Positions 26,225-43,428 of a stretch of DNA of 64,000 bases are shown one piece after another (the stretch's first letter is position 1; each line of letters starts with the position of its first letter). Below the pieces are notes generated by a model, which had not been told where the DNA came from, did no database searches, and saw nothing but the letters and a program-made list of their open reading frames with translations. Location of the stretch: positions 1,736,001 through 1,800,000 of the forward strand of contig NZ_CP064786.1 in assembly GCF_017094485.1 (NCBI RefSeq). Direction: 5' to 3'. Made by a program: the position numbers and the translations under genes. The stretch comes from Natranaeroarchaeum sulfidigenes. GTDB taxonomy: Archaea; Halobacteriota; Halobacteria; Halobacteriales; Natronoarchaeaceae.

Positions 26225-27757
26225 TCACTCCCCTGACCAGTCAAGTGAACGCTCGACCGCATCCGACCACTGCTCGTACCGACGGTCTGCACGTTCGGCC
26301 TCCATCTCGGGCTCGAACTGTCGGTCAACCTGCCAGTTCGCGGTGAGTTCGTCAAGGTCAGACCAGTAGCCGACGGCGAGACCGGCCGCGTATGCCGACC
26401 CCAGTGCCGTCGTCTCGTCGACCTGTGGTCGGACGATTCCCGAACCGATGATATCGGACTGGAGCTGACAGAGGAAGTTGTTTTTGACAGCCCCGCCGTC
26501 GACACGTAGCGCACCCATGTCGATGCCGCTGTCGGCTTCCATCGCTTCGGCCACGTCACGCGTCTGATACGCGATGGATTCGAGCGTCGCCCGCACGATG
26601 TGCTCACGTCGCGTCCCTCTGGTTAGTCCGACAAGCGTTCCGCGCGCACGCTGGTCCCAGTGGGGCGCGCCGAGACCAGTAAAAGCGGGGACGAAGTAGA
26701 CACCGTCAGTCGAGTCGACGCTCCGTGCGAGCTTTTCAGTCTCGGCAGGGGCGTCGATAATCGTCATATCTTCGAGCCACTCGATCGCCGCGCCGGTGAT
26801 GAAGATCGACCCTTCCAGCGCGTACTGGACGGGTTCGCCCGAGCGCTGGAAGCCAACCGTCGTCAGCAGACCGTTGTCGCTGGTGACGGCTTCGTTGCCC
26901 GTGTTCATCAGGAAGAAACTACCCGTCCCGTAGGTATTTTTCGCATCACCCGCATCGAAGCAGGTCTGCCCGAACAGCGCGGCCTGCTGGTCGCCAAGTG
27001 CGCCCGCGACCGGAATCTCCTCCCCGAGGAAGCCGTCTGGGTCGGTGTAGCCGTAGTAGTTCTCGTCGCTGGAGGGACGCACTTCCGGTAGCACCTCCTT
27101 TGGCACGCGGAACTCCTCACAGAGTTCGTCGTCCCACTCCATCTCGTGGATATCGAACAGCATCGTCCGGGAGGCGTTCGTCACATCCGTGACGTGATTG
27201 CCCGTCAGATTGTAGATCAGCCAGGTGTCGATCGTTCCAAACAGTACCTCTCCCGCACTCGCACGCTCGCGAACGTCGACGGGACGTGCGCGCCGGGTTG
27301 TGATCGGGTCGGCGTTGTCGAGCAGCCACTCGGCCTTCGTCGCCGAGAAGTACGCGTCGGGTTCCAGACCGGTCTTGGCCTGTACGTCATCGGCTTTTCC
27401 CTCGTTCCGGAGCCTCTCGACGCGATCGGTCGTCCGGCGGTCCTGCCAGACCAGTGCGTTGTGGAGCGGTCGCCCGGTGTCGGCGTCCCACAGCAGCGTC
27501 GTCTCGCGCTGGTTCGTCACGCCGATCGCTTCCAGCTGGTCCGCGGAGAGGTTTGCAGCGTCGAGGGCCCGTTCGGTAACCGCTTTCGTGTTCTCCCAGA
27601 TCTCGTGGGGATCGTGCTCGACCCAGCCCGGTTGCGGATACTGCTGTACATGTTTCTCGTAGGCGTTCGCAACAACCTGCCCGCTGTGATCGAACACCAT
27701 AAAGCGTGTTCCTGTCGTTCCCTGGTCGACTGCGCCAACATAGGTGTTGTCTGTCAT
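26225..27757 (-). CDS. glpK: Glycerol kinase, copy 1
   Basis: A 510-residue FGGY-family glycerol kinase: ATP + glycerol to sn-glycerol-3-phosphate. Landmarks: VGAVDQGTTGTRFMVFD (phosphate-1), NQRETTLLWD, WQDRRTTDRVERL, TYGTGSFFLMNTG (adenosine/phosphate-2), and C-terminal DGGAVKNNFLCQLQSDI. ATG 27757 (MTDNTYVG) matches the start of copies 2 and 3. It is the most divergent copy, e.g. PITTRRARPVDVRERASAGE and its C-terminal tail ERSLDWSGE, where the others have RSRDWARD. A TATA box ACATTTATC lies 94 nt upstream. Three kinases in 8 kb indicate heavy glycerol use (glycerol from Dunaliella is a major carbon source in brines). Confidence 0.96.
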   Translation of the reverse strand: MTDNTYVGAVDQGTTGTRFMVFDHSGQVVANAYEKHVQQYPQPGWVEHDPHEIWENTKAVTERALDAANLSADQLEAIGVTNQRETTLLWDADTGRPLHNALVWQDRRTTDRVERLRNEGKADDVQAKTGLEPDAYFSATKAEWLLDNADPITTRRARPVDVRERASAGEVLFGTIDTWLIYNLTGNHVTDVTNASRTMLFDIHEMEWDDELCEEFRVPKEVLPEVRPSSDENYYGYTDPDGFLGEEIPVAGALGDQQAALFGQTCFDAGDAKNTYGTGSFFLMNTGNEAVTSDNGLLTTVGFQRSGEPVQYALEGSIFITGAAIEWLEDMTIIDAPAETEKLARSVDSTDGVYFVPAFTGLGAPHWDQRARGTLVGLTRGTRREHIVRATLESIAYQTRDVAEAMEADSGIDMGALRVDGGAVKNNFLCQLQSDIIGSGIVRPQVDETTALGSAYAAGLAVGYWSDLDELTANWQVDRQFEPEMEAERADRRYEQWSDAVERSLDWSGE

Positions 27758-28058
27758 GGTTTCGTGTTCCGGGATCCCCCCAGTTCGGATAGCGAGGTCA
27801 AATACGGTCAGCCGCCAGCGATTCCTTGCTAGAAAATTTCCAGTATCAGTGATAAATGTTCCCCCGAGTCCCAGATACGTTGCCAGTAAAGGCACCCACA
27901 GAGGCTACGAGCTGACGATATCGTCGAGGCAGAGAACCGATACTTTGCGGACGATGAGACGACGCTATTGCTCTGTGGAGCGCCACCCTTCATCGGATCC
28001 ACGGTCTCGAAGGGCTCTCGTCCCGGTATGCTCCGAGCAAAAACAAGATCGTGGAGGA
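27758..28058. other. 301-bp region between glpK copy 1 and copy 2
   Basis: No gene seen. It holds the leader and promoter of copy 1 (TATA at 27851-27859) and the 3' flank of copy 2. The last 160 bp show no recognisable element. Confidence 0.55.
27851..27859 (-). promoter_or_regulatory. TATA box of glpK copy 1
   Basis: The minus strand reads GGGAACATTTATCAC. ACATTTATC is 94 nt from the ATG at 27757; a leader of about 65-70 nt follows. Copies 2 and 3 have the same ACATTTAT core at 94 and 101 nt. Confidence 0.55.
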
Positions 28059-29600
28059 TTACTGGTCGGAATCGCGGGCCCAGTCACGGGAGCGATCGAC
28101 GGCATCGGACCAGCGACTGTACAGTTTGTCCGCCACCTCGTTCGACATGTCGGGCTCGAACTCGCGGTCGATCTGCCAGTTCGCGGTGAGTTCGTCGAGA
28201 TCGGACCAGTAGCCGACGGCGAGGCCGGCGGCGTACGCCGAACCAAGCGCCGTCGTCTCGTCGACTTCTGGTCGTGCGATGTCCGTGTCGATGATGTCGG
28301 ACTGGAGTTGACAGAGGTAGTTGTTCTTGACCGCACCGCCGTCGACACGCAGCGTCTGCATGTCGATGCCACTGTCTGCCTCCATTGCCTCGGCCACGTC
28401 GCGTGTCTGATACGCGATCGATTCCAGCGTTGCCCGCACGATGTGTTCGCGTCGAGTCCCACGCGTCATGCCGACGATTGTACCGCGTGCGCGCTGATCC
28501 CAGTGGGGCGCACCGAGGCCGGTGAACGCGGGAACGAAGTAAACGCCGTCCGTCGAGTCAACGCTCCGTGCGAGCTCCTCGGTCTCGGCGGCGTCCTCGA
28601 TGAGTTGCATGTCCTCGAGCCACTCGATCGCCGCACCAGTAATAAAGATCGACCCTTCCAGCGCGTACTGGACCTCTTCGCCCGAGCGCTGGAAGCCAAC
28701 CGTCGTCAGCAGGCCATGTTCGCTCGTGACCGCCTCATCGCCGGTGTTCATCAGGAAGAAACTGCCCGTCCCGTAGGTGTTTTTCGCGTCGCCAGCCTCG
28801 AAACACGTCTGGCCGAATAGCGCGGCCTGCTGGTCGCCAAGCGCCCCCGCGACCGGAACCTCGGCACCGAGGAAGCCGTCCGGGTCGGTGCTGCCGTAGG
28901 TCTCCTCGTCGCTGGAGGGACGAACCTCCGGTAGCATCTCCTTCGGAACGCGGAACTCCTCACAGAGTTCGTCGTCCCACTCCATCTCGTGGATGTCGAA
29001 CAGCATCGTTCGTGATGCGTTCGAGACATCCGTGATATGATTGCCAGTCAGGTTGTAGATGACCCAGGTGTCGATCGTGCCAAAGAGGACATCCCCTTCA
29101 GCGGCGCGCTCCTGGACATCGGCGGGACGGGCGCGCTGGGTTTTGATCGGGTCGGCATTATCGAGCAGCCACTCGGCCTTCGTCGCCGAGAAGTACGCGT
29201 CGGGTTCGAGGCCGGTTTTGGCCTGCACGTCGTCGGCTTTGCCGTCCTCCTGGAGCGTCTCGATTCGGTCGGTCGTCCGGCGGTCCTGCCAGACCAGCGC
29301 GTTGTGGAGCGGCCGGCCCGTATCGGCGTCCCACAGCAGCGTCGTCTCGCGCTGGTTCGTTACACCGATGGCTTCGAGCTGGTCCGCGGTGATGTTCGCG
29401 TCCGAGAGCGCCTGTAGCGTGACGTCTTTGGTGTTCTCCCAGATTTCCCGGGGGTCGTGCTCAACCCAGCCCGGCTCCGGATAGATCTGTTCGTGTTTCT
29501 CGTAGGCGTTGGCCACGATCTGTCCGCTGTGGTCGAATACGATGAACCGTGTTCCTGTCGTTCCCTGGTCGACTGCGCCGACGTAGGTGTTGTCTGTCAT
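28059..29600 (-). CDS. glpK: Glycerol kinase, copy 2
   Basis: A 513-residue glycerol kinase with the same motifs as copy 1. By eye it differs from copy 3 at about 25 of 513 positions (roughly 95 % identity), mostly between residues 60-75, around 245-260 and at the C-terminal tail; it is visibly further from copy 1. Full-length and uninterrupted, so probably functional. Own promoter 94 nt upstream. The gene is flanked by glpK copy 1 downstream and by two small membrane-protein genes upstream. Three copies could give higher dosage or different expression conditions. Confidence 0.96.
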   Translation of the reverse strand: MTDNTYVGAVDQGTTGTRFIVFDHSGQIVANAYEKHEQIYPEPGWVEHDPREIWENTKDVTLQALSDANITADQLEAIGVTNQRETTLLWDADTGRPLHNALVWQDRRTTDRIETLQEDGKADDVQAKTGLEPDAYFSATKAEWLLDNADPIKTQRARPADVQERAAEGDVLFGTIDTWVIYNLTGNHITDVSNASRTMLFDIHEMEWDDELCEEFRVPKEMLPEVRPSSDEETYGSTDPDGFLGAEVPVAGALGDQQAALFGQTCFEAGDAKNTYGTGSFFLMNTGDEAVTSEHGLLTTVGFQRSGEEVQYALEGSIFITGAAIEWLEDMQLIEDAAETEELARSVDSTDGVYFVPAFTGLGAPHWDQRARGTIVGMTRGTRREHIVRATLESIAYQTRDVAEAMEADSGIDMQTLRVDGGAVKNNYLCQLQSDIIDTDIARPEVDETTALGSAYAAGLAVGYWSDLDELTANWQIDREFEPDMSNEVADKLYSRWSDAVDRSRDWARDSDQ

Positions 29601-30097: not shown

Positions 30098-30499
30098 TCA
30101 CCGACGAGGGAGTGTTCCCCGGAGCGCGAAGAATCCGACGAACGCGAGAAAACAGCCGGTAAGCAGGCTAATGTTGTGGTCTGTCGTCACAACCATCGTC
30201 ACGAATCCAGCAATTGATCCGAGAAGCAACCCACCGCCGACCGCACCGTGATGAAAGTTGTCAGCGGTCGGGTGGTCCGCCAGCGACTGGCGCTGCTCGG
30301 CAGGGACAGAGATACTCGCATAGTAGGGCAACAGAAACTGGACGCCGATACCGACCCCCGCGGCGACGACTGCACTGAACTCCGCGTGCATCGTAATCAG
30401 GAGACTTGCTGTAAAGAACACTACGGTGACCAGTGTCGAGACGATCCAGCTCCACTTGTCGGCAGTTTTGACCCGGTTCGAGAACTCGTATTCCGACAT
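30098..30499 (-). CDS. Four-helix membrane protein
   Basis: A 133-residue membrane protein with about four hydrophobic segments (about 18-36, 42-60, 88-106 and 110-127) and a hydrophilic loop with EQRQSLADHPTADNFHHG between the second and third. The acidic/basic distribution suggests both ends in the cytosol. It leads the two-gene minus-strand unit. Divergent from the universal stress protein. A membrane-stress or transport-partner role is only guesswork. Confidence 0.7.
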   Translation of the reverse strand: MSEYEFSNRVKTADKWSWIVSTLVTVVFFTASLLITMHAEFSAVVAAGVGIGVQFLLPYYASISVPAEQRQSLADHPTADNFHHGAVGGGLLLGSIAGFVTMVVTTDHNISLLTGCFLAFVGFFALRGTLPRR

Positions 30500-31337: not shown

Positions 31338-32324
31338 TTATGCGCCGAGTTCCAGTCCGAGGATCGACTCGGGGAACGCCCAGAACGCGGCGAAGTCACC
31401 GATAGCGAGTGCCAGAACCGTCGCGAGCAGTCCGGACATAAAGATCCCGAACGCTGGCGGGTCAACGTGGGTCTTACCGTGTGCGTAGAAGACACGGTTA
31501 CAGACTTCGCCCATGAGCGCGCCGAAGATACCGAAGCCAAGCGCCGCGAGCATGGCGACTTCCGGACCAGCCAGTCCACCAGCAGAGACCCCGAATGCAC
31601 CGACTGCACCCGGAAGTGTGATGTGGTGTGTGACTGGGAAGTCGGGAACACCAGTGTTCAGGAGGACCAGACTGGCAGCGCTGATACCGAAGACGAGCAC
31701 GACGCTACCGGTTTCGAGGTAGACGAACCCACCGACGAGACCACCGACGAGACCGATCATCGTGACGCCGCTCCACTTGTACATGTGCGGCAGCCAGATG
31801 CCGGGTGCTTCCTCTTCGTCCCGTTCGGCGGGGCTCATGTCGAAGATGCTATCTCCGGTAATCTCACCGATGATGCTGTAGCCGAAGACGACACGGTGGA
31901 TCAGCGCGGAGAGAAACACCATCAGCGCGATGTTATCCGTCGGCGAGCCGACGTAGTTCAACATCTGTTCGCCGACAAGACCGATGATACCGAAGATACC
32001 ACCGACGAGCAACACGTCGACGTTATGTGTTCCTAACCCGTCAACGATATTCTTCCCGTCGTCGAGGTAGCCCTGCTTCGCCGCGTACGCGGCCGCAGCG
32101 GCACCCGCTGCGAACGAGATGTGGGGACCGAACACCGGACCGAATCCGATCGATCCAGTGATCGCACCTTCCGCACCAGCATACACAGCAGCCTCACCCG
32201 CAATCACCATGAAGCCGGTGAAGACGAATGCCGGAAGGGCACCGATCGAGGCTGCGAAGGCACCGCCTGCGAACGCCGCCATCCAGAAGACCGGATCCCC
32301 CAGTAGCGTTGCTTCGAGTACCAC
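31338..32324 (-). CDS. Unknown multi-pass membrane protein in the glpK3 operon (candidate glycerol carrier)
   Basis: A 328-residue, very hydrophobic protein with about 8-9 membrane segments. It starts 2 nt after the stop codon of glpK copy 3, so translational coupling is likely. Gly/Ala-rich helices and conserved-looking motifs: GGAFAASIGALPAFVFTG near the N-terminus, GPHISFAAGAAAAAYAAK (about 68-85), GDSIFDMSPAERDEEEA (hydrophilic loop ~160-176) and FPVTHHITLPGAVGAFG (about 230-247). It is not a MIP/aquaporin: no NPA motifs. Placed with glycerol kinase and opposite glpABC, it is a reasonable candidate for glycerol uptake or for G3P export control; that is inference. Confidence 0.75.
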   Translation of the reverse strand: MVLEATLLGDPVFWMAAFAGGAFAASIGALPAFVFTGFMVIAGEAAVYAGAEGAITGSIGFGPVFGPHISFAAGAAAAAYAAKQGYLDDGKNIVDGLGTHNVDVLLVGGIFGIIGLVGEQMLNYVGSPTDNIALMVFLSALIHRVVFGYSIIGEITGDSIFDMSPAERDEEEAPGIWLPHMYKWSGVTMIGLVGGLVGGFVYLETGSVVLVFGISAASLVLLNTGVPDFPVTHHITLPGAVGAFGVSAGGLAGPEVAMLAALGFGIFGALMGEVCNRVFYAHGKTHVDPPAFGIFMSGLLATVLALAIGDFAAFWAFPESILGLELGA

Positions 32325-32326
32325 GT

Positions 32327-33868
32327 TCAGTCACCACCGTCGCGGGCCCAGTCGCGGGAGCGATCGACGGCGTCGGACCAGCGACTGTACATCTCGTCTG
32401 CTTCCTCGTTCGACATCTCGGGCTCGAACTCGCGGTCGATCTGCCAGTTCGCGGTGAGTTCGTCCAGATCCGACCAGTAGCCGACCGCGAGACCGGCCGC
32501 GTAGGCCGAGCCAAGCGCCGTCGTCTCGTCGACCTCCGGACGTGCAATATCCGTGTCGATGATGTCGGACTGGAGCTGACAGAGGTAGTTGTTCTTGACC
32601 GCACCGCCGTCGACACGCAGCGTCTGCATGTCGATCCCGCTGTCGGCCTCCATTGCCTCTGCTACGTCGCGCGTCTGGTACGCGATGGATTCGAGGGTTG
32701 CCCGCACGATGTGTTCGCGTCGGGTCCCACGCGTCATGCCAACAATGGTTCCGCGTGCGCGCTGGTCCCAGTGTGGCGCACCGAGTCCAGTAAACGCGGG
32801 AACGAAGTAGACGCCGTCCGTCGAGTCGACGCTGCGCGCGAGCTCCTCGGTCTCGGCGGCGTCCTCGATGAGATCCATATCGTTGAGCCACTCGATCGCC
32901 GCGCCAGTGATGAAGATCGATCCTTCGAGCGCGTACTGGACCTCCTCACCCGAGCGCTGGAAACCAACAGTCGTCAACAGGCCGTTTTCGCTGGTGACGG
33001 CCTCGTTGCCCGTGTTCATCAGGAAGAAGCTCCCAGTTCCGTAGGTGTTCTTTGCATCGCCAGCCTCGAAACACGTCTGGCCGAACAGGGCCGCCTGCTG
33101 GTCCCCGAGCGCACCGGCGACAGGGACTTCCGCGTTCAGGAACCCATCGGGGTCGGTCGAGCCGTACGTCTTCTCGTCGCTGGAGGGTCGGACCTCGGGC
33201 AGCATCTCTTTGGGCACGCGGAACTCCTCACAGAGTTCGTCGTCCCACTCCATCTCGTGGATGTCAAACAGCATCGTCCGCGACGCGTTCGAGACATCGG
33301 TGATGTGGTTGCCCGTCAGGTTGTAGATGACCCACGTGTCGATCGTGCCAAAGAGCACGTCGCCCTCTGCGGCGCGTTCGCGAACGTCGGCGGGACGGGC
33401 GCGCTGGGTTTTGATCGGATCCGCGTTGTCGAGCAGCCACTCGGCCTTCGTCGCCGAGAAGTACGCGTCGGGTTCCAGACCGGTCTTGGCCTGTACGTCG
33501 TCGGCTTTGCCTTCCTCCTGGAGCGTCTCGATTCGGTCGGTCGTCCGGCGGTCCTGCCAGACCAGCGCGTTGTGGAGCGGCCGGCCCGTATCGGCGTCCC
33601 ACAGCAGCGTCGTCTCGCGCTGGTTCGTCACGCCGATCGCTTCCAGCTGGTCCGGGGTCAGGCCGGCATCGTTGAGTGCGTCCTGAATAACCTGTTTCGT
33701 GTTCTCCCAGATCTCGCGGGGGTCGTGCTCGACCCAGCCGGGCTCCGGATAGATCTGTTCGTGCTTCTCGTAGGCGTTCGCCACAACCTGCCCGCTGTGG
33801 TCGAACACCATGAAGCGCGTGCCTGTCGTTCCCTGATCGACTGCGCCGACGTAGGTGTTGTCTGTCAT
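32327..33868 (-). CDS. glpK: Glycerol kinase, copy 3
   Basis: A 513-residue glycerol kinase, about 95 % identical by eye to copy 2. ATG 33868 (MTDNTYVG) is the same start as in the other copies. It heads the operon glpK3-membrane protein and is divergent from glpABC across 263 bp, so it is probably the principal catabolic copy. Its promoter (TATAAATGT on plus, ACATTTATA on minus, 33969-33977) is accompanied upstream by the GGGGTGTT repeats. Motifs (VGAVDQGTTGTRFMVFD, TYGTGSFFLMNTG, DGGAVKNNYLC) are intact. Confidence 0.97.
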   Translation of the reverse strand: MTDNTYVGAVDQGTTGTRFMVFDHSGQVVANAYEKHEQIYPEPGWVEHDPREIWENTKQVIQDALNDAGLTPDQLEAIGVTNQRETTLLWDADTGRPLHNALVWQDRRTTDRIETLQEEGKADDVQAKTGLEPDAYFSATKAEWLLDNADPIKTQRARPADVRERAAEGDVLFGTIDTWVIYNLTGNHITDVSNASRTMLFDIHEMEWDDELCEEFRVPKEMLPEVRPSSDEKTYGSTDPDGFLNAEVPVAGALGDQQAALFGQTCFEAGDAKNTYGTGSFFLMNTGNEAVTSENGLLTTVGFQRSGEEVQYALEGSIFITGAAIEWLNDMDLIEDAAETEELARSVDSTDGVYFVPAFTGLGAPHWDQRARGTIVGMTRGTRREHIVRATLESIAYQTRDVAEAMEADSGIDMQTLRVDGGAVKNNYLCQLQSDIIDTDIARPEVDETTALGSAYAAGLAVGYWSDLDELTANWQIDREFEPEMSNEEADEMYSRWSDAVDRSRDWARDGGD

Positions 33869-33968
33869 GGTTTCGGTTGGTTTGTGTCCAGAGTTGGTCG
33901 TATACGGTGTCCATACACGGCACTTTACTCGTGGCGCCGTGATATCAGTAAACAACAAGTACATTCAT

Positions 33969-34131: not shown

Positions 34132-35871
34132 ATGGAATCCAGTACCGGGGTCCTCGTCATCGGCGGTGGGTCGACCGGCACCGGCATCGCGCGCGACCTC
34201 GCGATGCGGGGTGTCGACGTCACACTCGTCGAGAAGGGGAACCTTACACACGGAACGACGGGCCGGATGCACGGCCTGCTCCACAGCGGCGGACGGTACG
34301 CCGTCTCGGATCAGGAAAGTGCCAAGGAGTGTATCATCGAGAACAGGGTCCTTCGGGACATCGCAAGCCACTGCGTCGAAATGACGGGCGGTCTATTCGT
34401 CCAGCGTCCACAGGACTCGGACGAGTACTTCCAGAAGAAGCTGGAGGGCTGTCGTGAGTGTGATATCCCTGCGGAAGTACTTTCGCCCGAAGAGGCCAGA
34501 GAAGTCGAGCCGTATCTGGCCGAAGACATCGAGCGCGCGATCAAGGTGCCCGACGGTGCGATCGATCCGTTCCGGCTGTGTGTCGCCAACGCGGTCAGTA
34601 CCGAAAATCACGGGGGGCGTATCGAGACACACGCACCGGTCACCGATGTACTCCTCGAAGATGGGGAAGTCGTCGGTGTCGAGGTGACCCACGAGAGTGG
34701 TCCGGGCAAGCGCGTGCACGGAAAAGAAGGACAGAAGGAGAAGATCTACGCGGACCACGTCGTCAACGCCGCCGGAGCGTGGACTGGTCGGATCGGCGAC
34801 ATGGCAGGCGTCGATATCGAGGTACGGCCCTCCAAAGGGGTAATGACCGTAATGAATGCACGGCAGGTGGATACGGTCATCAACCGCTGTAAGCCGAAAG
34901 GTGACGCGGATATTATCGTCCCACACGAGACGGCCGCTATCCTCGGCACGACGGATGAAGAGGTGGAAGATCCCGAGGACTACGCCGAAGAACAGTGGGA
35001 GGTCGACCTGATGATCGAAGAGCTCAAAGAGCTCGTTCCGATTTTGGATGAGTCGCGAACGCTCCGTTCGTTCTGGGGCGTCCGTCCGCTGTACGAGCCG
35101 CCGGACACGGGGACCGAAGACGCAACCGATATCACGCGACAGTTCTTCCTGCTCGACCACGAGGATCGCGACGATCTCACGGGAATGACGACGATCGTCG
35201 GCGGGAAGTTTACTACCTACCGGATGATGGCAGAGCAGCTCTCGGACCACGTGTGTGAGCGGCTCGGGATCGATGCCGAATGCCGAACCGCTGAGGTTCC
35301 GCTTCCCGGCAGCGAGAATACGGAGGTACTCGACGATGCGATGGACCGGTTCGGTCTCCGGTCGCCGATCGCCCGGCGGAGCAAACAGCGGCTTGGCAGT
35401 CGTGCCGAGGAGGTACTCGATGTGGACGGGCCGAACCCCGTCGTCTGCCAGTGTGAAGGAGTCACCCGTGCGGAACTCGAGGATGCGATCGATCAGTCGG
35501 GCACGGATCTCAATGCGGTTCGGCTCCGAACACGGGCATCGATGGGGAACTGTCAGGGCGGCTTCTGTTCGCGTGCGATGGCTGACCTGTTACACCCCGA
35601 GTACGAGGAAGCGATCGCCCGAGAGGCGTACGACGAACTGTTCCAGGAGCGCTGGAAAGGCGAGCGTCACGCACTCTGGGGTGAACAGCTCTCGCAGGCG
35701 ATGCTGAACTACGCGCTGCACGCGACGACGCTCAACGCCGATGCAGATCCAGCGCGGCTCGGTCAGGACGTCGATTTCGCGGCGTTCGATGGCGGTGAAT
35801 TCGACAGCGTCGAACGTACAGAGCGCGGAGCTGACGCCGTTGCGACTGACGGAGGACACGATGGCAATTGA
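34132..35871 (+). CDS. glpA: Anaerobic glycerol-3-phosphate dehydrogenase subunit A
   Basis: A 579-residue FAD-dependent flavoprotein oxidising sn-glycerol-3-phosphate to dihydroxyacetone phosphate. Rossmann FAD motif [20 protein letters not shown] (4-23); [15 protein letters not shown] is the typical early substrate-binding region. The C-terminal BFD-like [2Fe-2S] domain has C439 and C441 (CQCEGVTR) and C474, C479 (GNCQGGFC). The last ~60 residues are acidic. It overlaps glpB by 11 nt (35861-35871), so glpABC is one operon. Divergent from glpK3. Confidence 0.96.
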
Positions 35872-37138
35872 AGACGACGTGCTCGTGATCGGCGGCGGAC
35901 TCGCCGGCATTGCCGCCGCGGTCGGCGCACACGAACAGGGTGCACGGGTCCGGCTGGTCTCGCACAAGCAGTCCACGATGCGACAGGCCAGCGGACTGAT
36001 CGACCTGCTCGGCTACACACCGAACGGCGATGGACCGGTCGTCGATCCGTTCGAGGCGATCGAGGAGTTACCCGAGGGCCACCCCTACGAGCGGGCCGGA
36101 CTCGACGCCGTCAGAGCAGCCATGGACATGTTCGACGACGCCACTGGGGAGATGTACGCTGGCAGTCATACCGACAAGAACGCGCTCGTCCCGACCCACG
36201 GCGGAGCGATCAAGCCGACTGCACGGTATCCGGACAGTGCAGCGCCCGGGATCGCAAGCGCGCACGGTGATACGCTGTTTGTCGGATTCGACTCGATGAT
36301 CGAGTTCGACGCCCCGGTCGCCGCCGACCATCTCGCGGCGACGGGCGTCCCGTACGAGACCGACGGCGCCACCATCGAGTTCCCCGGCAACCTTCGTGAC
36401 GACGCCAAGGTGACTCGCTTTGCCCATCTACTCGATCGCGACGACGAGGTCGCTGTCGACGGCACGACGATGCCAGTTCGGACCGCCCTCGCAGAGCGTG
36501 TGAAAGAACACATCGACGGCCACGATCGGGTCGGATTTCCCGCGGTACTTGGCGACGATAACGCGGCCGAGGTTCGTGCCGAGCTGGCAGACAAACTCGG
36601 TGCGTCAGTCTTCGAGGTACCGATGGGACCACCGAGCCTTCCCGGACTCCGACTCGAAGACCGGCTGTACGAGTACCTTCACGAGATCGGCGTTCGCGTC
36701 TCGACTGGCAACCCGATCGTCGACGTCGAACAGGCCAACGGCGAGATCGATCGTGTCGTCGGCGACCATACCGGTCGGGAGGTACCGTACAAGGCCCAGC
36801 AGTATATCCTCGCGACGGGTGGCCTGGTCGGGAAAGGCATCGACTCGGATCGGGAGGGTGTGTACGAACCCGTCTTTGACTGTCACGTCCCACATCCAGC
36901 CGATCGATACGACTGGTTCGAGGACGGTGCGTTCGACGATCACGAGTTCGCCCGTTTCGGCGTCCCGGTCGATACCGAACTCCGGCCGCTCGATGCAGAC
37001 AACGTACCCGAATTCGAGAACCTTCGGGCGGCGGGCAGTGTCCTCGGGGGCTATGACTTCCCAAGCGAGAAATCAGGCTCCGGCGTCTCGCTGGCAACCG
37101 GATACGCGGCAGGTGAACTGGCAGGTGATCGAGTATGA
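35861..37138 (+). CDS. glpB: Anaerobic glycerol-3-phosphate dehydrogenase subunit B
   Basis: A 425-residue FAD-binding subunit; starts [25 protein letters not shown] (GxGxxG motif). An upstream ATG in the same frame (35741) would lie inside glpA and is rejected. It contains [30 protein letters not shown]-type nucleotide-fold pieces and the C-terminal [27 protein letters not shown], a second FAD-contact pattern of GlpB. GlpB links GlpA to the membrane GlpC. Starts within the last codons of glpA. Confidence 0.93.
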
Positions 37139-37174
37139 ATGACGTGTGCGATCCTGACGACGAGGTGAGTTCCA

Positions 37175-38461
37175 ATGAGTGATTCCCAGCAACCCAGTGA
37201 TTTCGAACCGGTAGATGTGTTCGCGGAGACGGACGGTATGGATCTCCGTCCCGGCTCCGACGACTGTTACAAGTGCTCGACCTGCGATACGAACTGTCCG
37301 GTCGCGGAAGTCGACGACGATTTCCCCGGCCCCAAGTTCCAGGGTCCCGAACAGTGGCGGCTCAAACGAAAGGACGATTACGATATCGACGACTCGATCA
37401 CGGACTGTTCGAACTGTCTTCGGTGTGATACGTCCTGTCCATCCGAGGTCCCGTTGAGTCAGATGCACAACACTGCCCGGAGTCAGTACGTCGACAACCA
37501 GATGAGCAAGCTCTCGGTGGAGTATATCAGGAACCGGATCCTGTCGAACTACCGGACCTCCGCCTATCTTGCGAGTCTCTTCCCCCGAACGGCGACCTTC
37601 GTGATGAACTTCGGTCCGGTCCGGTGGGTCATGGAAAAGGGGCTTGGAATCCCGAGCGAACGGGATTTCCCCGAATTCGCGACCACGACCTTCCGTCAGT
37701 GGTGGAAACAACGCGGCGGTGCACAGGTGCAAAACCCCGACAAGCGCGTCGCGTACTTCCATGGCTGTTACTCTAACTACAATACCCCGGAAGTCGCGAA
37801 AGCACTGGTGCACGTGTACGAGGAGCTGGGCTACGAGATCATGGTTCCCGAACAGAAGTGCTCGGGGACGCCGATGTTCGCGAACGGGATGTTGAGCGAT
37901 GCACGACGGCACGCGGAGACGAACGTGGAGAACCTGACAGCAGCGATCGAGGACGGAGCGGACATTATCGCCTCCTGTACCTCCTGTTCGCTGGCGCTCC
38001 GACAGGAGTACCCGGAGCTCTTCGACATCGACGGGATCGAAGACGTCTCGAATCATACCTACGACGCGCTGGAGTACCTGCGAATCTACGAGGATCTCGA
38101 AGCCGAACTCGAGGGAGCGGAAGTCGACTTCCCCGATCTGGCATACCACGCACCGTGTCACTCACGAAATCAAGGTCTCGACGGGCAAGCACTCGAGTTG
38201 ATCGAAAACATCGACGGCGTGATGGCCGAAGACGTTGGTGACTCCTGCTCAGGTATCTCCGGCACCTACGGCTGGAAAACGGAACACTACGATGTGTCGA
38301 TGGAGATCGGCGAGGAGATGTTCGAGCACATGGAACACGCCGAAGGCGATGTCGGGATGACCGAGTGTCCGACCTGTGCGATGCAGATGGAACACGGCAC
38401 GGGATACGAGATCAAACATCCCCTGGAGGTGCTCGAAGCCGCGCTGGTCTCGGAAGAGTAA
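37175..38461 (+). CDS. glpC: Anaerobic glycerol-3-phosphate dehydrogenase subunit C (iron-sulfur, CCG domains)
   Basis: A 428-residue membrane-associated electron-transfer subunit. Two ferredoxin-type [4Fe-4S] motifs: C31, C34, C37, C41 and C78, C81, C84, C88. Two CCG (heterodisulfide-reductase C-like) domains follow: HGCYSNYNTPEVAKALVHVYEELGY, then QKCSGTPMFANG, later APCHSRNQGLDGQ and DSCSGISGTYGWK. It passes electrons from GlpAB to quinone. ATG 37175 lies 36 nt after glpB. A frame of 15 codons in this gap is probably not a gene. Complete. Confidence 0.96.
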   Translation: MSDSQQPSDFEPVDVFAETDGMDLRPGSDDCYKCSTCDTNCPVAEVDDDFPGPKFQGPEQWRLKRKDDYDIDDSITDCSNCLRCDTSCPSEVPLSQMHNTARSQYVDNQMSKLSVEYIRNRILSNYRTSAYLASLFPRTATFVMNFGPVRWVMEKGLGIPSERDFPEFATTTFRQWWKQRGGAQVQNPDKRVAYFHGCYSNYNTPEVAKALVHVYEELGYEIMVPEQKCSGTPMFANGMLSDARRHAETNVENLTAAIEDGADIIASCTSCSLALRQEYPELFDIDGIEDVSNHTYDALEYLRIYEDLEAELEGAEVDFPDLAYHAPCHSRNQGLDGQALELIENIDGVMAEDVGDSCSGISGTYGWKTEHYDVSMEIGEEMFEHMEHAEGDVGMTECPTCAMQMEHGTGYEIKHPLEVLEAALVSEE

Positions 38462-38489: not shown

Positions 38490-39635
38490 ATGGACCTGAG
38501 CGAACGGATCGCTCGTCGCCAGCAGACTAACGCGGCCCAATCGGTTATTACCCAGGAGAGTGCGCTGAATCCAGCCGTACACCTCCCGGAGCCGATCGGT
38601 CGTGGAGCAATACTGGAGCGATTGCTGGACGCACTCGGACCCGTCTTCGAGGGGGCGCTCCCTGAGAACATCGCAGTATGTGGTCCAGGTGGTGCGGGTA
38701 AATCGGCAATTGTCACCTCACTGTTTTCACATCTGAACGATAGCTTCACCGAAACGAGCGGATCGATCGGAACGACGACCCGGTCCGGCTCTGCTGTCCC
38801 GACTGCCCAGTTCGCATATGTGAACACCAGACAGATCGACAGTGCGTTTCAGTTCTATCATGCAATCCTTGACACGGTTTCGTCGGAACCAGTTCCCCGG
38901 CGCGGAATCGGAACCGACGAACTCGCAAAGCGCCTCGAGGCGACGATACAGGGCACCCGGCCGGTCGTCATCGCGGTCGACCACATTGAGGACGGGGGGA
39001 TATCGATCGACGATGCAACCGACCTTCTCGAACCGGTCGAGTCATCAGTGTGCCTACTTGCCATTCGTAACGGCGGAGTCGGCGACTGGTCGGGAAAGGT
39101 CGTTGAGGTCCCACGGTACCAGACACACGCACTCGTCGACCTCCTCGCCGAACGGGCTTCCTACGGGCTGGCGAGTGGTACGGTCTCTCACGAAGTCGCC
39201 CGCGAGGTCGCAAGCTGGGCAGACGGGGATGCACACGACGCCCTCGCCGCGCTATTTGGTGCTGCGATTCACGCTCAGGAGAGTGAGCACGAACATATCA
39301 CGTCCGAGGACGTTGCCGTCGGTATGGGGGCAGTGCCGGAAGACTGCATCCAGATCGGACGCGTGCTCGCACTGCCGGATAACCGCCGGAACGTACTGCT
39401 CGAACTGCTTTCGGTCGGACCGGAAGCGGCGACGATCAGCGAAGTTTCTGCGGAGATCGGCCGCCGGACGGATCTCTCGCCGAACACCGTCCAGCGGTTC
39501 GTCTACGAACTGGCCGAGACGGGAATTCTCGAACGCACCGTCATCAACAGGAGCAGTTCCGACGGACGGCGTCCAACCACTGTCGTCCCACGATTTCCAA
39601 CACTCGTGTTCCAGCGACTCGAAACCAAGCGGTAG
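38490..39635 (+). CDS. Divergent Orc1/Cdc6-family AAA+ ATPase
   Basis: A 381-residue protein of the archaeal Orc1/Cdc6 type, initiator-like but divergent. Walker A GPGGAGKS at 65-72, Walker B-like VVIAVDHIED at about 158-167 (family proteins usually end DE; here DHIED), and a C-terminal winged helix about 300-381 with SEVSAEIGRRTDLSPNTVQRFVYELAETGILERTV. N-terminal SERIARRQQT fits the initiator start. It begins 28 nt after glpC stop and is probably read with glpABC. No origin-recognition boxes stand next to it, so it is unlikely to mark an origin. It may be a regulator evolved from an initiator. Confidence 0.8.
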   Translation: MDLSERIARRQQTNAAQSVITQESALNPAVHLPEPIGRGAILERLLDALGPVFEGALPENIAVCGPGGAGKSAIVTSLFSHLNDSFTETSGSIGTTTRSGSAVPTAQFAYVNTRQIDSAFQFYHAILDTVSSEPVPRRGIGTDELAKRLEATIQGTRPVVIAVDHIEDGGISIDDATDLLEPVESSVCLLAIRNGGVGDWSGKVVEVPRYQTHALVDLLAERASYGLASGTVSHEVAREVASWADGDAHDALAALFGAAIHAQESEHEHITSEDVAVGMGAVPEDCIQIGRVLALPDNRRNVLLELLSVGPEAATISEVSAEIGRRTDLSPNTVQRFVYELAETGILERTVINRSSSDGRRPTTVVPRFPTLVFQRLETKR

Positions 39636-39638
39636 CTA

Positions 39639-40649
39639 TTACTCTCCGTCAGCAGTCGGTTCACCGATAACATCCGGTTTGTCAGATGTGCCCTCCACGT
39701 AGTTCAGATCATCAGTAAATCTATCCAGTGCGATCACTGCTGCCGCACCGAGAACCATAGCGAAGAGTATCGGCAAGAGTGGTTCGAGAACGTTTGCTGT
39801 GAGCGACTCTGTCGTGACGGTTACAGAAACGTTTGCTGTGACCTGCTGGGCCGGAAGCAACAGCCCGCCGACCATGAGTGCAACGAGAAAGGCAAGCGTT
39901 TCGGCCCGATGGCGTTCAAGGGCGCGCTTGACGAGGTGGGCAACGGTAAGTAGGCCGACGACTGCGCCGGTCAGGAAGGTGACGACAACCGTCCCTGTCG
40001 CAAGCACTTCCGCGATACTGCCCCCCGAAAGCACGCCAACCAGCGCGTCGACGAACGCGTTGAGCGCGTCAAGCATGAAGTAGTATTGGCCGAGCACGAG
40101 CAGAAAAAAGGCTCCAGACACACCGGGCAACACCATCGCGCTGACGGCGATCGCGCCGGCGACGAAGACGACCGGAAGCGCATGAGAGACTGAGCCAGCA
40201 GTGACGAGAGTCACGCCGCCAGCGATCAAGATACCCGCGGTCATGATCGGGATGGATCGACGGCGAGGGAGGCGGATCTGATCGGCAAGGACGACCGCTG
40301 AAGCGCCGATCAGGCCGAAGAAAAACGCTGCCGTCGCCGCGGGATATGTCTCGGCGACCGTCCCCACGACACGCGAGACGGTGAGGACGGCGGTTCCGAT
40401 TCCCGCGCCGAGCGCCAGCAGAAAGCCGAGATCCATCCGGTCGATTCCGTCGGCGAGCGATTCGCGCGCTGCTGGGTCGTGAGGGCGGACCGCGTGGGTA
40501 ACCAGCCGTGGGTCGAGCGTCGTAATCGCGGTGACGAGCCGTTCGTAAATCCCTGTAATTAACGCGATTGTCCCGCCCGAGACACCTGGCACCATATCCG
40601 CAACACCCATCGCAACTCCCTTGAAGTAGATAGATAGCCACTCGCGCAT
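39639..40649 (-). CDS. DUF368 membrane protein (polyprenyl-phosphate transporter type)
   Basis: A 336-residue polytopic membrane protein with the DUF368 opening: YFKGVAMGVADMVPGVSGGTIALITGIYERL. DUF368 proteins (PopT) have recently been associated with polyprenyl-phosphate transport in bacteria; the archaeal carrier would be dolichyl phosphate. Helices with GxSG motifs recur (MVLPGVSGAFFLLVLGQYY), the two 'VSGG/VSGA' hairpins marking an internal duplication. The acidic last 25 residues are cytosolic. It lies 49 nt downstream of aglB on the same strand and is probably cotranscribed, tying lipid-carrier recycling to N-glycosylation (inference). Confidence 0.88.
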   Translation of the reverse strand: MREWLSIYFKGVAMGVADMVPGVSGGTIALITGIYERLVTAITTLDPRLVTHAVRPHDPAARESLADGIDRMDLGFLLALGAGIGTAVLTVSRVVGTVAETYPAATAAFFFGLIGASAVVLADQIRLPRRRSIPIMTAGILIAGGVTLVTAGSVSHALPVVFVAGAIAVSAMVLPGVSGAFFLLVLGQYYFMLDALNAFVDALVGVLSGGSIAEVLATGTVVVTFLTGAVVGLLTVAHLVKRALERHRAETLAFLVALMVGGLLLPAQQVTANVSVTVTTESLTANVLEPLLPILFAMVLGAAAVIALDRFTDDLNYVEGTSDKPDVIGEPTADGE

Positions 40650-40698
40650 CTACTCCTAGCAAGAGGGGGTGGCGTAAAAACGGTTGGCGTCGTGGTGT

Positions 40699-43428
40699 TC
40701 AGCTCTGCTCGAACTCGACCGGGCGCTCGTCGCCGTCGTAGATTGCGGGTTCGGGCACGTCAGTGCTGCCGGTCGTGCGAACGTCCTCGTCGAACGCCGA
40801 CAGATCGATCTGTCCACCGTCGATCGGCGCCTCGGCAACCGCCTCGGCGGAGACGTCCTCACCCGCGAGCACGGTGTACTCGTCGGTCGCCGTCACCGCG
40901 GTGTCGGTGTATCCATCCTCCGTGTCGAACTGATTGTCCGTCGCATAGGGGACGGTGACCTCGAACGAGCCGTCCTCGTCAGTCTCGGCGGACTGAACGT
41001 AGGTAAATGGGCGGTCACTGTTCGCCTCCAGTGGCACTGCCACGACGACCGTCTCGTCAGGTTCTGCCTCTCCGGTGATCGTTGCCCCCTCCACGCGCTC
41101 GTATGTTTTGACCGAGGAGACGACGTGTGTGTTCTCTCCGACATCGAGACCGAGCTGTGTGAGCTGTTCTTCGACGTCAGGTACCTGTTCCCAGCTGTTC
41201 GTTACCACCGGAATCTCAGCCCACACAGTTCCATCCTCATCGTCGGGGACTTCACCGACAACCGAGAACGACTCGCTTTCGTGGACGAGTCGGTAGCCCT
41301 CCATCCCCTGTGCATCGTCGTAGTACAGCGACCCGAGCATCGAGTCGTAATACTCGTCGCTGGCGGCCTGTACGCTTCCGCCGTCCACGTCGGGTACCGA
41401 TGCCCACTGGGTGATCGCACCGAACTTGCTACCCGCCATCTGGTCGTCGATCGTAACGTACCGGACCTCCTCGCCAGTTTCCTGGTCAGTTCGGTCGTCC
41501 CGAATATCGCTGAGTTCATCGTCGTCCATCTCGGCGATCGTCCCGTCGTGACGCTCGGAGGCGGGCAGCGACTCGACCAGCAGGTCCGCACGCTCCTCGG
41601 ACTGTGCCTGGAAGAAGCCACTGGCGGTATCAGTCCCCTGCTGGAACGGGTTCGCGGTCGGTATCCGCTCGCCCTCGACAGTGATCCAGTGGCCGTAGTC
41701 CCACCACGACATCACGCCGTACGCACCGTCCGGGTACTCGAAGTCGTCGGTGCGTTCGTAGGAGCCGTAGTACTCCATCGCCTCGTCGGCGTCTCCGAAG
41801 GTCCCCGGCTCGGGCGTGTCGCCCTCCATCCAGTCGAACGTATCGTCCCAGTACTCGACCGCGCCGGGATGTTGTTGATTCGCCTGCCCCACTGCCGAGA
41901 GCCCGAGTACGCCCGTGGCAAGCGGAAAGACGATTACGAGTACGACGGTAACGATCGCAATAACCTGGTAGGTTTCGACATCGGAGAGCTGATCGATCGA
42001 CGGCATTTCAAGGAGTCTGAACGCCTGCACCAGAATCCAGCCGTTCAGGACGGCGACGGCGACGGCGAGGTAGTAGTGATAGCGGATCTGAGTCAACGCC
42101 ATCAGTGTCAGGAAGATCGTCCAGACCACGACGAGGAGAACCTCCGCACGGAATCGACTCGCATCCAGCAGTCGCCAGACCATCCAGACGAGTGCGATGA
42201 CGGCGAAAATATAGGTGAAAGCGTAGTTGTTGATCAGATACGTACTCGCACCACCGGGCTGTTCCGCGGTCGGCTGGGCCTCGCTGATCGTCATCGCGGT
42301 CTCGGACTGACCGAGCAGCAGCTGGCTCTGGACCTGGCTCCAGACGGTGTCGAACAGCCCCGGCAGTGCGATAGCGACCACTGCGACCGCGAGAACGACC
42401 AGCCCTCCCACCGTGATGGGGTAGCCCGTCGTACTGATATCGCGTGTCTCCCACTGCCGGGCGAGCCACGCCATGAAGACACAGCCTGCGGCAACAGACA
42501 GTGCAACGAGTGGCTGCAGCAACGACATGGTCGACGGGCTCGTGATCGCGAACTCGTCGACCGCCGGGAGGGAGAGAACAGCACCCACAGTGAGACTCAC
42601 CGCGCCGACGACCGCGAGGTGTTCGGGGCTACGACCCTGCACGTACTCGACACACAGTGCAATCGCGAAAAACGCTCCAAGAATACCGATCAAGATAACC
42701 GCAGGGGGCCAGGTCCAGAGATACACCGCCAGAGAGACCCCGGCCAGACCACTCCATTTGAGTGTGGTATCGAGCCCGTTCCAGTCCCGATCCAGGAACT
42801 GCTCGTAGACCGGTTTCTCTCGCTCGGCGACCGTCAACGCGATCATCATCGCGAGGACAGTCGTCGCCTGAAACAGGACTTCCGCGACGTGATGATCGGT
42901 AAAGCCCACGGTGCTCCGCGTGAGGAACATGCCGGGGAGTAACGCGAGGATAAGAACAGCAAATACCCCACCGAGACGTCCTGAAAGGCGTTTGGCGATG
43001 AAATACGTCGGCAGCGCACAGAGGACGCCGAAGACAGCAGGTGCAAGCACGAAGACGATGCCCGCCTGACGCTCGGTCGGACTTCCGAGACCGACGATCA
43101 GGATCGCAGTAGCGATCAACTGGTCAAACAGCGTCCCGAACTGATCCGCGCTCGTCCCGAACGGGAACCGTGTCCACGGGTCAAACGGCATCGTCATCGG
43201 ATAGTTTTCGACGACGTACATCGTCTCCCGGAAGTGGTAGTACGCGTCGTTACCGCTGAAATAGACCTGCTCGTCGCGGACGAAGTTCCCGTACGGTTGT
43301 ACGCGGACCAGGAACATGAACAGCATCAACACTCCCAACGCCGGGACGTGATACCACTGCTGGAGAAGCTCCTCGACCGACCCCGAATCGCCGAGATTGA
43401 ACCGATCGGTGTCGAGACTCATTGTCAA
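40699..43428 (-). CDS. aglB: Oligosaccharyltransferase AglB
   Basis: A 909-residue STT3-family enzyme that moves the lipid-linked glycan onto Asn in N-x-S/T at the outer membrane face. N-terminal half has about 11-13 membrane helices; the first catalytic acidic loop is SGNDAYYHFRETMYVVENYP (D61). The signature WWDYGHW is at residues 575-581 (W575, W576, D577, Y578, G579). The C-terminal globular part carries beta domains (about 690-900). MTMSLDTDRF begins at 43428; ATG 43422 is a near alternative. A TATA box at 43447-43457 places transcription at the start codon (leaderless). Confidence 0.95.
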   Translation of the reverse strand: MTMSLDTDRFNLGDSGSVEELLQQWYHVPALGVLMLFMFLVRVQPYGNFVRDEQVYFSGNDAYYHFRETMYVVENYPMTMPFDPWTRFPFGTSADQFGTLFDQLIATAILIVGLGSPTERQAGIVFVLAPAVFGVLCALPTYFIAKRLSGRLGGVFAVLILALLPGMFLTRSTVGFTDHHVAEVLFQATTVLAMMIALTVAEREKPVYEQFLDRDWNGLDTTLKWSGLAGVSLAVYLWTWPPAVILIGILGAFFAIALCVEYVQGRSPEHLAVVGAVSLTVGAVLSLPAVDEFAITSPSTMSLLQPLVALSVAAGCVFMAWLARQWETRDISTTGYPITVGGLVVLAVAVVAIALPGLFDTVWSQVQSQLLLGQSETAMTISEAQPTAEQPGGASTYLINNYAFTYIFAVIALVWMVWRLLDASRFRAEVLLVVVWTIFLTLMALTQIRYHYYLAVAVAVLNGWILVQAFRLLEMPSIDQLSDVETYQVIAIVTVVLVIVFPLATGVLGLSAVGQANQQHPGAVEYWDDTFDWMEGDTPEPGTFGDADEAMEYYGSYERTDDFEYPDGAYGVMSWWDYGHWITVEGERIPTANPFQQGTDTASGFFQAQSEERADLLVESLPASERHDGTIAEMDDDELSDIRDDRTDQETGEEVRYVTIDDQMAGSKFGAITQWASVPDVDGGSVQAASDEYYDSMLGSLYYDDAQGMEGYRLVHESESFSVVGEVPDDEDGTVWAEIPVVTNSWEQVPDVEEQLTQLGLDVGENTHVVSSVKTYERVEGATITGEAEPDETVVVAVPLEANSDRPFTYVQSAETDEDGSFEVTVPYATDNQFDTEDGYTDTAVTATDEYTVLAGEDVSAEAVAEAPIDGGQIDLSAFDEDVRTTGSTDVPEPAIYDGDERPVEFEQS

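Follow-up and report, generated by a model that had tools for sequence, protein, structure and literature searches.

The glp Locus and Its Permease Gene

The window analysed here is a stretch of 64,000 nucleotides from the haloarchaeon Natranaeroarchaeum sulfidigenes (contig NZ_CP064786.1, positions 1,736,001 to 1,800,000). It harbors a gene for a membrane protein, hereafter the permease, that directly follows the glycerol kinase gene glpK3 and lies opposite a divergent set of glpABC-like genes:

31338..32324, minus strand: permease of 328 aa with a GTG start, predicted to be a facilitator for glycerol/polyols (ORF, with the start residue kept in relatives)
32325..32326, no strand: gap of 2 nt between glpK3 stop and permease start (from the sequence)
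32327..33868, minus strand: glpK3, glycerol kinase, with MTDNTYV taken as its start and an open frame to 33964 (TIGR01311, 730 bits, over the cut-off)
34132..38461, plus strand: divergent glpA-, glpB- and glpC-like genes, glycerol-3-phosphate dehydrogenase (ORFs, identified by inspection and from their location next to glpK)
34132..35871, plus strand: glpA-like gene
35741..37138, plus strand: glpB-like gene
37175..38461, plus strand: glpC-like gene

The stop codon of glpK3 ends at 32327 and the permease starts at 32324, in agreement with the spacing of 2 nt given in the first-pass annotation. The permease start is conserved, as close relatives carry MVLE or MVLD at the same residue. Since 184 out of 244 haloarchaeal genomes contain open-frame relatives, one of them from the same genus with 90 % identity, and since the start residue is shared, the ORF can be regarded as a real gene. 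On its 3' side lies a convergent universal stress protein gene, so that the glpK3-permease unit ends with the permease.

Co-Occurrence with Glycerol Kinase in Haloarchaea

In a sample of 244 near-complete haloarchaeal genomes, the permease family (E<=1e-10) was found in 184 and glycerol kinase (E<=1e-100) in 207. Both were encoded in 181 genomes, the permease only in 3, glycerol kinase only in 26, and neither in 34, which corresponds to a Fisher p of about 1e-21 if the relatedness of the genomes is ignored. Wherever both genes could be placed (105 genomes), the permease immediately follows glpK in the same orientation in at least 101, and the tight spacing is thus not due to chance. The first-pass annotation had proposed a glycerol transporter, a role against which frequent occurrence without glpK would speak; only 2 to 3 of the 184 permease-bearing genomes lack glpK. 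One of these (G122) was rejected as a true permease-only genome, as its glpK is broken at contig ends, with the final portion of the gene immediately preceding the permease, and the count hence reflects an assembly artefact. In the two others (G029 and G180), glycerol kinase is absent even at E<=1e-20. Of the 26 among 207 glpK-bearing genomes that lack the permease, seven were inspected (L065 to L071), and a transporter behind glpK was not evident in any of them, which indicates that glycerol can be used without the permease.

Earlier Literature

A glycerol transporter encoded next to glpK was already predicted by Anderson et al. in 2011, whose text describes an uncharacterised membrane protein adjoining glycerol kinase in all kinase-bearing haloarchaea but one, the exception being Halomicrobium mukohataei with a MIP gene in that place, as well as homologs in bacteria that lie close to glycerol or propanediol genes (PMC3102087). 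We found no difference between that family (rrnAC0550, NJ7G_1712, HQ1732A) and the permease: both are uncharacterised and polytopic, both adjoin glpK (here at 2 nt), and both have relatives in bacteria with such neighbours, the link being one of position, family spread and description. Restatements or variants of the prediction followed in 2012, 2017 and 2022, and the Natrinema J7-2 genome paper (PMC3402447) is among the papers that restate it. For Haloquadratum, an ortholog-like gene is described as sharing a polycistronic message with glpK and as highly expressed when the culture is fed glycerol (PMC5496347), and a 2025 study notes that GlpF is rarer than glycerol kinase in Archaea and points to alternative transporters (PMC11962113). 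A transport test of this protein is not reported in the literature found, and the Haloferax glycerol kinase papers contain nothing on uptake. A paper on the Haloferax glp operon (J. Bacteriol., 2011) may already name a putative glycerol facilitator there.

Exchange with the MIP Family behind glpK

Genes of the MIP family, to which GlpF and PduF belong, are present in 11 of the 244 haloarchaeal genomes. In four of these, MIP occupies the slot directly behind glpK that is otherwise held by the permease, presumably for the same job: the spacing is 3 nt in both G058 and G114, 0 nt in G203, and about 25 nt in G123, as measured from the edge of the MIP match. No permease match was obtained in G058 and G114, and G123 combines one glpK-MIP pair with one glpK-permease pair that includes a second glpK. 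In G203, a remnant covering residues 212-306 only is located about 4.3 kb from the glpK-MIP pair (L078:3082-3360, i. e., G203:C3:1091081-1091359, minus strand) and adjoins a phosphatase gene of a kind that is also found near the permease in G123. This remnant looks like a replaced, decaying permease gene, and G203 looks like a genome midway through a transporter replacement. Where MIP lies elsewhere in the genome (G015, G071, G177, G193, and G208), the permease is still found behind glpK. N. sulfidigenes itself has no detectable MIP gene anywhere in its genome, which supports the earlier observation of no other glycerol transporter in the glp island, though for the MIP family only.

Bacterial Relatives and Their Operons

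A homolog from Geosporobacter with 41-46 % identity, depending on the alignment, is flanked by a PduS-like gene and a gene for a PduT-like shell protein inside an operon for a propanediol-type microcompartment. Among 291 sampled genomes of the same class, the family is present in 11, Geosporobacter included; key neighbours were identified via Pfam and the rest by eye. Of the other ten relatives, six reside in Pdu-like operons, one lies behind glpK, one beside genes for a glycyl-radical enzyme, an activase and shell proteins, one after aldehyde and iron-containing alcohol dehydrogenase genes (1,3-propanediol-type), and one has no telling neighbours. In Rubrobacter, the homolog is accompanied by genes for a DeoR/GlpR regulator, a transketolase and an FGGY kinase, and in Rhodococcus by genes for alcohol and aldehyde dehydrogenases and an acryloyl-CoA reductase. 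On a Microbacterium plasmid from activated sludge, the permease lies 2 nt behind glpK and is grouped with genes for a haloalcohol dehalogenase and an epoxide hydrolase (L041:5299-9879), which looks like a pathway that turns halohydrins into glycerol-3-phosphate. Plasmid-borne relatives are annotated as 'hypothetical protein', and no relatives were detected in the viral contigs searched. The shared theme of the bacterial neighbourhoods is short polyols, mostly with three carbons.

These operons also bear on two other readings of the gene. The strict linkage to glpK in haloarchaea would suit a protein that anchors glycerol kinase to the membrane or regulates it, rather than a transporter; however, many clostridial relatives occur in propanediol operons without an adjoining kinase, and the duplicated ten-helix architecture described below is typical of transporters, which renders such a role very improbable. 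Alternatively, the cargo may not be glycerol but a compound related to it, above all dihydroxyacetone or glycerol-3-phosphate, and the Haloferax GlpK indeed phosphorylates dihydroxyacetone as well (PMC3863723). The relatives in propanediol operons, and the fact that a glycerol channel family takes the same slot, speak for uncharged polyols instead, and we consider this alternative cargo improbable.

Family Identity

Searches of Pfam and NCBIfam with the permease and 17 diverse relatives gave no convincing family, but only scattered weak single matches, and profile searches of the PDB with the permease family returned nothing or one irrelevant match at E 1.8. The first-pass annotation had described a polytopic protein that is not an aquaglyceroporin, and this description stands: the permease has zero NPA motifs, as compared to two in each MIP control sequence, does not match PF00230, and gave E 0.66 in profile comparison with MIP. 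An aquaglyceroporin identity was thus rejected. The two families also differ in architecture, with six helices and two half-helices in GlpF/PduF and ten helices in the permease.

A further proposal concerns the fructose-type EIIC proteins of the phosphotransferase system (PTS), which are polytopic like the permease. For the Haloquadratum gene, one study reports a match to the PRK10712 (fructose IIBC) domain and suggests a PTS-like role together with GlpK (PMC9684190). In G123, an HPr gene is moreover found near the glpK-MIP pair. However, searches of Pfam and NCBIfam with 18 relatives gave no match to any PTS model at E values up to 10, on which grounds an EIIC identity was discarded. Glycerol kinases, furthermore, use ATP as phosphate donor, and a phosphotransferase system formed by an EIIC-like permease with GlpK is scarcely conceivable.

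Architecture and Conserved Residues

The permease falls into two halves, each with a conserved histidine and a conserved aspartate:

31845..32303, minus strand: first internal repeat, residues 8-160, five predicted helices (profile-profile comparison of the halves; helices from the model)
31389..31793, minus strand: second internal repeat, residues 178-312, five predicted helices (profile-profile comparison of the halves; helices from the model)
32121..32123, minus strand: codon of H68 in the GPH motif, where a helix begins (92 % of 53 relatives; pairs with H234 in the repeat alignment)
31935..31937, minus strand: D130 codon (invariant in 53 relatives; pairs with D288 in the repeat alignment)
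31623..31628, minus strand: H233-H234 codons, THH motif (invariant in 53 relatives)
31455..31463, minus strand: D288-P289-P290 codons (invariant in 53 relatives)

Homology of the halves is evident from profile-profile comparison (E 3e-6 over 124 columns; 0.83-0.86 for reversed controls). With other settings, E was 3.5e-5, as against 0.2-0.8 for controls drawn from MIP, other membrane proteins or membrane-like ORFs. Judged by these alignments, the permease is an internal duplication of two five-helix units, a feature for which we found no prior description. The best AlphaFold2 model, computed from nine sequences, has ten main helices (pLDDT 69.7, pTM 0.72); another prediction, headed by the compact homolog from Geosporobacter, was of lower quality (pLDDT 52.8). 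In the topology of the best, moderate-confidence model, lysine and arginine number 6.8 per protein on one side and 0.2 on the other (18 sequences). This positive charge bias would fit two inverted repeats with both the N- and the C-terminus outside.

Foldseek searches with the same moderate-confidence model gave no match at E<=0.001 in the PDB or BFVD, with TM<=0.25 for the PDB fold matches among the hits shown, and the model is too poor to claim a new fold. The urea transporter (UT) and Amt architectures are of similar size and would share the presumed repeat plan and a conserved polar residue pair per half. Sequence matches or significant fold matches to either were not obtained, and neither is among the 50 best PDB fold hits.

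The segments FPVTHHITLPG and GPHISFAAG, which had been singled out as conserved-looking and possibly pore-lining, are both present, and conservation of their histidines was borne out by the relatives. With one histidine and one aspartate where helices begin in either repeat, both faces of the membrane would carry a polar pair, and these pairs may line a passage.

Proposed Function and Mechanism

Taken together, the permease is probably a glycerol entry protein, namely a facilitator, that forms a two-gene unit with glpK3. According to this proposal, the ten-helix permease with its two five-helix, presumably inverted repeats would let glycerol pass down its gradient, GlpK made from the same message would trap it as glycerol-3-phosphate, and the neighbouring GlpABC would oxidise the latter. 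The probable cargo of the bacterial relatives would be 1,2- or 1,3-propanediol and C3 polyols of that kind.

The main competitor is an ion-coupled (Na+ or H+) symporter that concentrates glycerol. It draws on the invariant D130 and D288 and the conserved histidines in the membrane part, and the putative inverted-repeat plan occurs in carriers, too. On the other hand, MIP channels replace the permease in the same slot, for which reason a passive facilitator is favored, and trapping by GlpK makes coupling unnecessary. We therefore regard symport as rather unlikely, although the conserved acidic and histidine residues leave room for it.

Returning to the facilitator, it is quite possible, if somewhat short of probable, that the family constitutes a new structural class of small-polyol facilitators with two inverted five-helix repeats and a His/Asp pair per half, which is interchangeable with GlpF/PduF in archaea and bacteria and provides the main glycerol entry route of haloarchaea. 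The first-pass annotation likewise spoke of a new class of glycerol carrier. Its reading of the gene as a glycerol transporter is favored by the glpK linkage, the MIP swap, the bacterial operons, and the missing relation to aquaporins, but was already published in 2011. That published prediction is strengthened here, with good support, by gene displacement, the wide bacterial operon context, and the internal duplication.

Glycerol is a main carbon source in hypersaline waters, while a haloarchaeal glycerol transporter has not been demonstrated in the literature found and GlpF occurs in almost none of the 244 genomes. A verified transporter of the permease family would fill this gap in glycerol uptake. 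A gene that many genomes still list as hypothetical would then have a name, and the propanediol microcompartment operons of bacteria would gain an uptake protein. As the family is known only as a prediction from 2011, the value of the present analysis lies in making this prediction directly testable.

Further Features of the glp Neighbourhoods

Three glycerol kinase genes lie in a row on the minus strand of the window (26225..27895, 28059..29600, and 32327..33964), with glpK3 being 96 % identical to glpK2 and 87 % to glpK1. A genome of the same genus (G141) also contains three glycerol kinases and one permease. Between glpK2 and the permease, a membrane protein of 133 aa without known family is encoded (30098..30499, minus strand). 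An ATPase-like protein (GRGPILERLLDAL...) is encoded at 38490..39635 (plus strand), and similar proteins are found in other haloarchaeal glp neighbourhoods (L070:2073-3239, L072:2316-3524, and L074:1843-3015), in one case 8 nt behind glpK. Finally, a DUF368-like and an oligosaccharyltransferase-like gene adjoin the glp island (39639..43428, minus strand), and the same pair adjoins the permease in G180, a genome without glpK (L077:5281-10659).
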